Of a DNA stretch of 64,000 nt, positions 41,017-44,974 are shown piece after piece. How positions within the stretch are numbered: position 1 is the first letter of the stretch; each line of letters begins with the position of its first letter. The translations under genes and the position numbers were made by a program. The notes under the pieces were generated by a model that had not been told where the DNA came from, searched no databases, and saw nothing but the letters and a program-made list of their open reading frames with translations. Source of the DNA: Deltaproteobacteria bacterium (GTDB taxonomy: Bacteria; Desulfobacterota; Desulfobulbia; Desulfobulbales; Desulfobulbaceae); the NCBI GenBank assembly GCA_024280455.1, contig JAJRQC010000135.1, positions 1 to 64,000 of the forward strand. Reading direction: 5' to 3'.

Positions 41017-41940
41017 ATGTCTGTCTATGTAACTGGCCACAAAAATCCGGATACTGATTCCGTCACCGCTGCCATTGCCTATGCCGAGTTGATGAAGGCT
41101 CAGGGCGAGGATGCCATTCCGTCCATGCAGGGTGAGATGAACCCGGAAACTGTCGTTGTTCTCGAGCGCTTTGGCGTTGCCGCACCGGAGATCATGACTG
41201 ATGCAACCGGCAAGCAGATTGCCCTGGTTGATCACAGTGACCTGAACCAGGCCCCGGATAACCTGAGTGCGGACAGTGTTGTTGCCATTGTTGATCATCA
41301 TAAGATCGGTGATGTAACCACCAACCAACCCATTTTCTGCTGTGTTCAGCCTGTCGGCTGTACTGGAACCGTCCTCAAACAACTCTACGATATTGCCGGT
41401 GTTGCCGTTGATACCAAAGTCGCCGGCCTGATGCTGGCTGCCATTCTCAGCGATACCGTCAACTTCAAATCGCCCACATGTACGGATGCGGATAAGAAAG
41501 CCGTGGCCGAGCTCAAGGAGATTGCCGGTGTAACTGATACCGATGAACTGTTCATGGCCATGCTCAAGGCCAAAAGCTCGGTTGACGGTGTACCTGCACG
41601 GGATCTGCTCAACCGTGATTACAAGGATTTCGATATGAACGGCAACAAGGTCGGTTGCGGTCAGCTTGAGCTGGCAACCCTGGACCAGGTCGCCGCTATT
41701 CGTGATGACCTGCTTGCCGCCATGAAGGAGCAGAAGGCCGAAGGCGGACATCACACCATTCTGCTGATGCTTACCGATGTCGTCAAAGAGGGAACCGAGC
41801 TGGTTGTTGTTTCCGACGATCCTTCCCTTGTTGAAGGTGCCTTTGACAGCAAGCTCGACGGAACCTCCATGTGGATTCCCGGCATGATGAGCCGGAAAAA
41901 ACAGACGGTGCCGAACATGCAAAAGGCATTCGGCTGCTAA
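41017..41940 (+). CDS. ppaC: Manganese-dependent inorganic pyrophosphatase
   Basis: A 307-residue family II pyrophosphatase (DHH superfamily) which splits PPi to two phosphates in the cytoplasm and so drives biosynthesis, including nucleotide-sugar formation. The metal ligands lie in GHKNPDTDSV (His8, Asp12, Asp14) and in VDHHKIG near residue 93. LSDTVNFKSPTCTDADK is another family block, and the C-terminal DHHA2 domain ends with SRKKQTVPNM, the substrate-binding S-R-K-K-Q. AAGGAGGAG just upstream is a very strong ribosome site, so high expression is likely. A promoter, palindromes and a strong terminator make it a single-gene unit. Confidence 0.96.
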   Translation: MSVYVTGHKNPDTDSVTAAIAYAELMKAQGEDAIPSMQGEMNPETVVVLERFGVAAPEIMTDATGKQIALVDHSDLNQAPDNLSADSVVAIVDHHKIGDVTTNQPIFCCVQPVGCTGTVLKQLYDIAGVAVDTKVAGLMLAAILSDTVNFKSPTCTDADKKAVAELKEIAGVTDTDELFMAMLKAKSSVDGVPARDLLNRDYKDFDMNGNKVGCGQLELATLDQVAAIRDDLLAAMKEQKAEGGHHTILLMLTDVVKEGTELVVVSDDPSLVEGAFDSKLDGTSMWIPGMMSRKKQTVPNMQKAFGC

Positions 41941-42033: not shown

Positions 42034-43656
42034 TCATCCTGCCGGGCACCGTATCTTTTGAATTTTTTCAGTGTAGATAAAATTTTTATCCCGCTGGTCG
42101 GTATGGCACTGCAGGCAGATGTCCTGGTCAGGCTTTGCCGGGAGGACGGATTCGGGCATTTTGCTATGCTTGCGCGCCGGGCCGTGGCAGGTCTCGCAGC
42201 CGACCCCCTGCAACTCAAGCGGAATGTTGCTCAGCAAATCTTTTTCCTGAGCCTGACCGCTGTCATATGTGGGCAGGGTAACATGGCAGAGCAGGCAGTC
42301 CGGATTGTACTGTTGATCCAGATCAGCCAGAGTTTGCCAGGCCTTGGCGTGGTTGGTTGAGAGGTAAAATGATGTCTGTTCATGATGACATTTTTTGCAG
42401 GCCGGCCAACCGGCCATCTCCTGCAGGGGTTCTGGAAATTTGTTGTTTCCTGTTGTCTGCCGTTTTCCCGCCTGTTGTTTTTTTCGTTTTTGCTGAGCCT
42501 TGCGGTTGATCTGGTTAACCTCGCGTCTGGTCTGGTCGACGATGGCCTTGATTGACCTGTCTTCGGGCATGGAGGCTTTAAGGGCAATAAAACTGTTCTT
42601 GTAGCTGCACGTTGCCTGAGCCTGTCCATCACTCTCTATTTGCGCCTGCATCCGCTGTATGGCCTGTTCACTTTGTGCCTTGTTGTTCAGCAGCTGTTGA
42701 AACTGAGTGTTCTTTGCCAGGGCCTGCTCCGTGTTTCGTTTTTGCATCCGCCCGATCTGCCAGTTTATCCGGTCAAGACGATTTTGTTCTTTTTGCAGTT
42801 GAGTTGGGATAGGTTTGCCCCAGGTTTTGGAGCTGTTCCAATTGATCTGTAAAAACCCTACAGACTTTCCACGGGTTTCCGTCTGGCAGAGAAGGGTGTT
42901 GTTGATGTTGACCGGGGGCTGGTTGCCGCCGCCCTGTCCGGATTGGAAGAGAATATGAATGGTGTCGAATTGCCGGGCAATCTCTTCGTTTACTCTTCTT
43001 GGTTCGCTGGAGAGCAGGATAATCATATCCGCTTGTTTCTCGACTTCCTGAAGTATTTTCGGCAGGATTGACTGCCAGGGCAGGATATGAAATCCTTTGT
43101 CTTGCAGCATGTTTCCAGGGTTGCCGGTTAAACCGAGGATGGCGATCTTTAACGTACCCGCCCGGGTCAGCAGATACGGCTTGAATACGGGAGTAGTGCC
43201 GCGATTGGGGTATAGATTCATGGAGAGAAAGCTCAGGTTGTTTTCTCGTTCCAGTTGTTTGAGAAATGGCAGACCGGCGGCAAGGTCATGGGGTGCAATC
43301 CCGACTGCCCTGGTCCCCATTGCACTCACGGCCCGGGCAATTCCCTGTGCGGTTCGTTTTGCAGCCTCTTCCGCCGTTGCTGTAAGCATGGGTTGTTTGA
43401 AGAGCAGTGCCCCACTGTCGAGAATAAGGGCAGGGGTGTCCTCGGTTCCAGTAAGTCGATCGATTTGAAACGCTTTTCTGGACAGACCGCCCAGTTGCTT
43501 GCTGCTTCAGCCACAGGCTTCGAGCTCGCTGCGGACATCGTTACTGTACAAGAGGAGCAGGTTTGATCCGGCATGACTGATTGCCGGTCTCAGGCATGCA
43601 AGGGTGATAACCGCCATAAGAATATGTAAAAAATTATTTCTGCTGTTGGGTTGCAT
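42034..43656 (-). CDS. UshA-like selenoprotein with C-terminal tetraheme cytochrome c domain
   Basis: Reading from ATG 43656 through one in-frame TGA (43509-43507) gives a continuous 540-residue protein. The start [20 protein letters not shown] is a signal peptide. It leads into LLLLYSNDVRSELEACG, then the TGA as codon 50, then SSKQLGGLSRKAFQIDRL, matching the 5'-nucleotidase/UshA-like pattern in which a Cys-rich GELEPCGC-QLGGLSR segment is usual. A SECIS-like hairpin follows the TGA. A long Gln/Lys-rich coiled coil (about 275-405) leads to four heme sites C-x2-CH at Cys 420, 454, 487 and 514. The protein is periplasmic and probably redox-active. If the TGA is treated as a stop, the gene is cut to 451 aa (from 43389) and loses its signal peptide. 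Its start overlaps rarA by 23 bases. Confidence 0.82.
43478..43494 (-). promoter_or_regulatory. Bacterial SECIS element
   Basis: On the minus strand CUGGGC and GUCCAG form a 6-bp stem (one G-U) with the apical loop GGUCU, the loop found in the E. coli fdhF SECIS. The stem starts 12 nt and the loop 18 nt after the UGA at 43509-43507, within the range that bacterial SelB requires. Confidence 0.8.
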
Positions 43657-44974
43657 GGGTGTGTGCTCTCTCCTGTAATATTTTTCGCCATTTAACCAGG
43701 CGATCGCGAATTACGGCCTCAAAGCCGCGGTTGGTCGGTTCATAATATCTGCGCCCGGATAACTCATCCGGGAGGTGCTCCTGATCGACAAGGCCATGCT
43801 GCTGTTCATGGGCATACTTGTACCCCTTGCCGTAGCCGATTTTTTTCATCAGGCCGGTGGGCGCATTCCTGAGATGCAGGGGAACCGGCAGGGTTCCCGT
43901 TGCCCTGATGTCTTTATTTATCTGTTGTTCAGTCCTGTACAGAGCATTGCTCTTGGGGGCGGTTGCAAGATAGGTAACGGCCTGCAGGAGAGCAAGCTCC
44001 CCTTCAGGAGAACCCAGCATGTGAAAGGCATCACGGCAGTTGAGGGCGACCTGCAGGCTCTGGGGATCGGCGTTGCCGATATCTTCACTGGCAAACCGGA
44101 TAAGCCGGCGGGCAATATACAGCGGGTCTTCTCCGCTGATCAACATGCGCCGCAGCCAGTAGGCCGCTCCGTCCGGGTCACTGTCACGCATGCTCTTGTG
44201 CAGGGCGGAGATGATATTATAATGTTCTTCTCCATTGTTATCATAGCGGAGATTGTGGTGCTGCTGGCCCGCTTCCCGGATAAGCGACTCCGAGATTTCT
44301 TTGAGTTCGCCGGATTCGGGAAGCAGTGAGGCCGCTGTTTCCAGGCAGTTCAGGGCCCGACGGCAATCGCCATCGGCCAGCATGGCCAGCAGCTCCAGGG
44401 CCGTATCTGTTATGCTGAGTTTTCGTGCTCCCAGACCTTGTTTCCTGTCGGCCAGCGCTCGTTGTGTAATCGTCTTGATGTCCTCTCTGCTCAGGGGCTG
44501 GAGGACTAGAACCTGACAGCGGGAGAGCAGCGGGGCGATGACGTGAAAAGAGGGGTTTTCGGTGGTGGCTCCGATCAGGGTCAGCAGGCCGCTTTCGACG
44601 TGGGGCAGAAAGGCATCCTGCTGCCCCTTATTGAACCGGTGAATCTCATCGACAAAGAGAATGGTCTGTCGCTTGGCACTCTGGTGTTTTGTCTCGGCCT
44701 CGGCGACAATCCTCCTGACATCCTTAACCCCGGACAGGACAGCAGAAAAAAAGATAAAGTCGGCGGCCAGGGTATTTGCCAGAACCGTTGCCAGCGTTGT
44801 TTTGCCTGATCCTGGAGGGCCCCAGAGCAGCAGTGAGGGGATTTTTCCTCGTTCAAGCAGTCCGCTGAGCAGGCGATTGCTGTCTGTGAGATGTTTCTGG
44901 CCGGCAAATTGATCAAGAGAGTCAGGCCGCATCCGCTCGGCAAGCGGTGCATTATGCTGGTATTTATTTTTCAT
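43634..44974 (-). CDS. rarA: Replication-associated recombination protein A (MgsA)
   Basis: A 446-residue AAA+ ATPase of the RarA/MgsA/WRNIP1 family, acting at stalled replication forks. [20 protein letters not shown] is the standard N-terminus, [16 protein letters not shown] the Walker [20 protein letters not shown] the Walker B, and [19 protein letters not shown] the sensor 1 region. The C-terminal part ([17 protein letters not shown], then [12 protein letters not shown]) forms the tetramerisation domain. Its 3' end overlaps the selenoprotein gene, so they may be cotranscribed. Confidence 0.95.

Follow-up and report, generated by a model that had tools for sequence, protein, structure and literature searches.

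The window analyzed here, a 64,000-nt stretch of Desulfobulbaceae DNA, carries on its minus strand a frame that runs from the ATG at 43656 to the TGA at 42036–42034, and translation shows a single interruption, a TGA at codon 50 (43509–43507). Reading this codon as selenocysteine (Sec) yields a product of 540 residues plus the stop (Table 1). The terminal TGA is a real stop, and close homologs also terminate at this point, with TAA. Without readthrough, the longest ORF is the 451-aa frame at 42034–43389, which is the one that a plain ORF list returns. Both the interrupted frame and the shorter ORF within it agree with a preliminary description of this DNA, which had proposed that the locus conceals a selenoprotein, an UshA-like cytochrome with four hemes. 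The 3′ end of the upstream gene, of the RarA ATPase type, overlaps the start of the frame, and a neighborhood with the RarA-type gene is conserved in many Desulfobulbales, where the neighbors are housekeeping genes (RarA, pyrophosphatase, FolE2, PurH and similar). In Planctomycetes and Verrucomicrobia (loci L143–L174), Cys forms adjoin DUF1573 lipoproteins or DUF4159 proteins, and the gene order is conserved. In none of these groups is the gene neighborhood informative about function, and it indicates no substrate.

Table 1. Features of the seleno-cytochrome locus and its immediate neighbors, in window coordinates.
Feature	Position	Strand	Basis or remark
UshA-like tetraheme selenoprotein gene (putative)	42034..43656	-	540 codons, one of them UGA-Sec, and stop; translation, NF041198, homologs
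Predicted signal peptide, residues 1-30	43567..43656	-	Hydrophobic core, then AISHA/GS; sequence reading; helix 8-20 in model
Cys48 codon of C-G-U motif	43513..43515	-	CxU in 47/58 Sec homologs
UGA codon 50, read as selenocysteine	43507..43509	-	Conservation in homologs; Sec machinery in genome
Bacterial SECIS-type hairpin CUGGGC-GGUCU-GUCCAG	43478..43494	-	Begins 12 nt after UGA
Metallophosphoesterase-fold domain, residues ~30-285	42802..43569	-	VIA-align to UshA, SoxB; most metal ligands lost
Helical coiled-coil linker with one beta strand, residues ~285-402	42451..42804	-	Model secondary structure
Heme-binding motif 1, CKKCH (420-424)	42385..42399	-	Translation; PF13435
Heme-binding motif 2, CLLCH (454-458)	42283..42297	-	Translation; PF13435
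Heme-binding motif 3, CETCH (487-491)	42184..42198	-	Translation; PF13435
Heme-binding motif 4, CLQCH (514-518)	42103..42117	-	Translation; PF13435
RarA-type ATPase, upstream gene	43634..44974	-	23-nt overlap with start of selenoprotein gene; named from sequence, without family scan
Manganese-dependent inorganic pyrophosphatase type, convergent neighbor	41017..41940	+	Named from sequence, without family scan

The full-length product matches the NCBIfam model NF041198, "UshA-like (seleno)protein", with 568.1 bits (cut-off 275), and its membership in this UshA-like CxU family is virtually certain. The next best model is that of SoxB (48.5 bits vs. a cut-off of 550), and the model for UshA-like family 2, NF049981, scores 41.7 bits, below its cut-off of 140. 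The protein is not new in kind, as the family has been counted among bacterial selenoproteins since a Global Ocean Sampling survey in 2008, which reported an UshA-like (COG0737) selenoprotein with the motif CxU in 76 Sec- and 92 Cys-containing sequences (PMC2398784), and it is given with the same motif in a 2022 review (PMC9312934) and, under NF041198, in a 2026 review (PMC13188914). The remark in the preliminary description that UshA-like proteins with Cys or Sec had been noted agrees with these papers. Its label of a "hidden" selenoprotein is only partly apt, given a family already listed in reviews and covered by an NCBIfam model that was built for its seleno form. According to the 2008 survey, nearly all the other major families had a conserved redox motif based on Cys and the UshA-like family did not; hemes were not mentioned for it (PMC2398784). 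A literature search mostly outside subscription journals returned no paper that ties the UshA-like selenoprotein to hemes or to loss of a metal site, which is weak evidence of novelty. Some relatives seemed to carry a "CTU" motif, which turned out to be CPTU, with a CxxU spacing like that of family 2.

The machinery for Sec insertion is present in the genome. A single good tRNA-Sec scores 72.1 bits, above the Rfam cut-off, and ARAGORN agrees on it (anticodon tca); selA and selB occur once each and selD several times, all above their cut-offs. The absence of selB and tRNA-Sec, named in the preliminary description as grounds for refutation, thus did not materialize. Two of the selD frames (G000:C104:41338-42264 and G000:C59:176-1105) contain one in-frame TGA each, and SelD is therefore probably itself a selenoprotein. 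The UshA-like protein is present in 55 of the 57 genomes of the group searched, nearly always with a single TGA inside. Among 63 distinct homologs, codon 50 is UGA in 58, Cys in four, and Arg in one; Sec or Cys thus occupies the position in 62 of the 63, where a random residue or a true stop would have counted against the preliminary description. The codon is TGC or TGT in three copies (L026, L031, L032) and TGA in nearly all other aligned copies.

Several individual copies depart from this pattern. One heme-bearing homolog (L074, genome G164) reads S-G-R (TCC GGT CGA) where the others have C-G-U, even though its genome contains selA and tRNA-Sec; this copy is possibly non-functional. A Sec copy (L133) and a Cys copy (L113) occur on two contigs of one metagenome-assembled genome (JAHIVT01). 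In a genome of the same genus as the window (L015/L051/L108), the frame of the homolog is lost before the fourth heme motif and the remainder lies in another frame, as a result of a frameshift or an assembly error.

The preliminary description had also placed a SECIS hairpin with a GGUCU loop 12 nt after the UGA, and this position is confirmed. Its folding energy was tried as evidence and is uninformative for a single sequence, being unexceptional (z = -0.28) and equaled by 42% of synonymous recodings; a 6-bp stem at the hairpin position arises in 2.3% of the recodings, and one with the GGUCU loop as well in 0.5%. An Rfam scan of the window returned no family at or above its cut-off. The evidence for a SECIS element is comparative, and it is strong. 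Codons 56, 58, and 59 are GGC, CUG, and UCC in all 22 Sec homologs compared, and codon 57 is GGT in 18 of them; at 52 further conserved codons of this type, the share of the top codon averages 0.52 and reaches at most 0.78. Pairing of the stem is retained in 98.1% of cells in an alignment of 26 sequences, vs. 20–56% with a shifted partner. Five of the 26 have U-A instead of C-G as the outer pair, and the other five pairs are invariant. Phylum-wide, the stems vary (e.g., CUGGGC/GCCCAG, CUUGGC/GCCAAG, UCUGGC/GCCAGA) and the GGCGGU apex is kept in nearly all. The hairpin is thus frozen at synonymous sites, with changes that preserve its pairs.

Three heme-bearing Cys copies, all from one genus (g9), belong to cable bacteria: L026 is identical with L100, from Candidatus Electronema aureum, L032 with L102, from Candidatus Electronema sp., and L031 is the third. 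Neither selA nor tRNA-Sec was found in the three genomes of this genus (92–95% complete); selA is missing from only one of 41 other genomes tested (74% complete), and tRNA-Sec was found in all 15 others tested for it. The hairpins of the Cys copies have decayed to differing degrees, and the Cys clade is nested in the tree among Sec forms, with a Sec protein as its sister (support 0.994). This joint loss of the machinery, exchange of Sec for Cys, and decay of the SECIS element is hard to explain unless UGA-50 encodes Sec. A literature search, again mostly outside subscription journals, returned no paper on Sec in cable bacteria or on their exchange of Sec for Cys.

The recurrence of UGA at the same site in homologs, the frozen hairpin, and the events in Electronema together place the reading of UGA-50 as Sec beyond reasonable doubt. 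The contrary reading takes the UGA for a sequencing error or a genuine stop, and the gene proper for a pseudogene or for the 451-codon ORF from 43389. It can point to an ordinary ORF list, which yields exactly this ORF, and to the unexceptional energy of the hairpin by itself. It has to contend, however, with a UGA that recurs in 58 of 63 distinct homologs across the phylum, flanked by conserved protein and a conserved hairpin, and with a 451-aa product that would carry four heme motifs and yet no signal peptide. A true stop or error at 43507 is ruled out by this conservation, and we regard the contrary reading as extremely improbable.

The C-terminal region carries four CxxCH motifs (at residues 420, 454, 487, and 514), which are invariant in 25 homologs, and matches the cytochrome c554 family PF13435 at 44.8 bits (gathering cut-off 20.8). 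The structural model shows helices here, bearing the CxxCH motifs. A Pfam scan up to E = 1 found no 5′-nucleotidase C-terminal domain; heme-domain families match at 419–525 instead. The best sequence match in the PDB is to the heme-binding parts of a multiheme protein (PDB 6i5b), which we take to be OcwA. Together with the hydrophobic leader at residues 1–30, these features uphold the four heme motifs and the signal peptide of the preliminary description, and the product is very probably a periplasmic tetraheme protein.

In the AlphaFold model (mean pLDDT 86.7, pTM 0.83), the N-terminal domain, which is followed by the coiled coil and then the heme region, resembles 5′-nucleotidases, including Escherichia coli UshA, with VIA-align Z scores of 31–32 over ~280 residues (~32 for UshA itself), and SoxB with a Z score of 30.9. 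The UshA-like scaffold of the preliminary description is confirmed as a fold; the loss of the phosphoesterase metal site is something that description did not mention. Aligned with solved 5′-nucleotidases, the protein has NDVR for NDxH, DSGA for DxGD, APHD for GNHE, LSS for LSH, and SGQG for GHSH, and of the complete dimetal set (DxH, GD, GNHE, H, GHxH) the first Asp alone is cleanly kept. Position 42 is Arg here and His in only 14 of 131 distinct homologs, Asp40 of motif I is kept in 84 of the 131, the GNHE block is not preserved, and the remaining ligand blocks vary; these counts include sequences selected partly on CGC, a choice that does not bias the ligand positions. Because the search selected partly on it, the conservation of CGC in that set is left out of the evidence. 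In contrast, the ligands are intact in the SoxB of the same genome (TTDTHAQ, DSGD, GHWEF, ISH, GGHTHD), which is encoded on a different contig beside SoxY and SoxZ. At this SoxY-SoxZ-SoxB-like cluster (L178, G000:C50:4500-12000), which is followed by frames of a YeeE/YedE-type transporter, SoxY and SoxB are apparently shortened, perhaps by frameshifts.

Since the dimetal ligands of 5′-nucleotidases and SoxB are mostly gone, the domain is in all likelihood a pseudo-phosphoesterase, and we reject a metal-dependent nucleotidase. Selection has retained the hemes and the C-G-U segment, which lies in the loop that follows strand 1. To judge from the homology of the first motif, this loop probably sits at the former active site of the 5′-nucleotidase/SoxB fold.

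The preliminary description envisaged Sec50 and Cys48 as a redox pair exchanging electrons with the hemes, and relatives show which of these parts is constant. Six orthologs at the same locus in the same family (L059, L060, L063, L064, L065, and L066) have no hemes and retain the UGA; RarA, pyrophosphatase, FolE2, or PurH surround these loci, and these orthologs have lost, or never had, hemes. In three heme-less relatives that score below the NF041198 cut-off (L065, L092, and L094), Sec is kept and Cys48 is replaced by Gly or Ser, and in other relatives the spacing from Cys to Sec is CxxU or longer. With the UGA retained in heme-less forms, and Sec in three of them that lack Cys48, the constant feature is Sec and not the Cys-Sec pair; Cys48 is usual and the hemes are optional. 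Neither Cys48 nor the hemes are therefore obligatory partners of Sec.

Taken together, the selenoprotein identity, the family assignment, and the pseudo-phosphoesterase reading are very likely correct. As to function, our best guess is a redox chemistry that is based on Sec and feeds the hemes, and we would put the chances that a Sec-centered redox function uses the hemes at about even. On the sequence evidence, UGA-50 is decoded as Sec via the downstream SECIS hairpin. In the most economical account, the protein would be exported, loaded with four c-type hemes, and put to work in the periplasm as an oxidoreductase. Sec50, in the loop that follows the first strand and at what would be the old 5′-nucleotidase/SoxB active site, would be the nucleophile in a redox reaction with a small substrate, possibly a sulfur compound, and Cys48 would usually provide the resolving thiol. 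Electrons would then pass to or from the fused heme domain, or, in the heme-less orthologs, to or from a separate partner. The relation to SoxB and the sox genes in the genome are what suggest a sulfur compound as the substrate, a reasonable guess and no more, which we think rather improbable. The most complete version of this account, a dead dimetal phosphoesterase of the SoxB/UshA fold turned into a tetraheme-wired redox enzyme with Sec in the metal pocket, perhaps acting on sulfur and surviving as a Cys form in cable bacteria, is tentative and falls somewhat short of an even chance.

Instead of performing thiol-type redox chemistry, Sec50, Cys48, and other groups might bind a metal, e.g., a soft one in the former dimetal pocket. 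In favor of such a role, the protein has the fold of dimetal enzymes and Asp40 is often kept; against it, most ligand positions vary freely and Cys48 is absent from three of the Sec relatives. We consider metal binding unlikely. It is equally unlikely, in our view, that the UshA-like part serves as a binding or carrier domain on which Sec carries a substrate group, e.g., a persulfide-like adduct, in a sulfur pathway of the SoxB/SoxY type, for the hemes to oxidize. Here the rank of SoxB as the best NCBIfam match after NF041198, the fold similarity to it (Z 30.9), and the SoxY-SoxZ-SoxB locus in the genome are weighed against a gene that is unlinked to the sox genes and a SoxB score far below the cut-off (48 bits vs. 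550).

If the Sec-centered redox reading holds, periplasmic seleno-cytochromes of this kind would form a new class of oxidoreductases, and one that cable bacteria have retained with Cys after the complete loss of selenocysteine. The family has been known since 2008 without an assigned function; the loss of ligands, the fusion to hemes, and the replacement of Sec by Cys in cable bacteria that lost the Sec machinery now point to a redox role at the old active site, and such a role becomes testable, e.g., by comparing Sec and Cys forms. It also follows that the automatic annotation of such proteins as 5′-nucleotidases is probably wrong.

Compared with known systems, the protein is an ordinary member of NF041198 (PCGU), sharing the full-length match, the C-x-U motif, and the occurrence of Sec or Cys forms, except that its own motif reads ACGU. 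NF049981 has a related domain with Sec, and its motif is CxxU, in contrast to the CxU (C48-G49-U50) found here. With UshA and the ecto-5′-nucleotidases (COG0737) it shares the N-terminal metallophosphoesterase fold (Z ~32 over 280 residues), but the metal ligands are mostly lost, and the C-terminal nucleotide-binding domain of UshA is replaced by the coiled coil and the tetraheme domain. The SoxB thiosulfohydrolase has the same fold (Z 30.9) and remote sequence similarity, whereas the window protein lacks the dimanganese ligand set and has Sec and fused hemes. Finally, the arrangement of heme motifs is shared with the cytochrome c554 family (PF13435) and with PDB 6i5b, although the window protein, as read from its sequence alone, would have only four hemes, fused to a domain of the phosphoesterase type.
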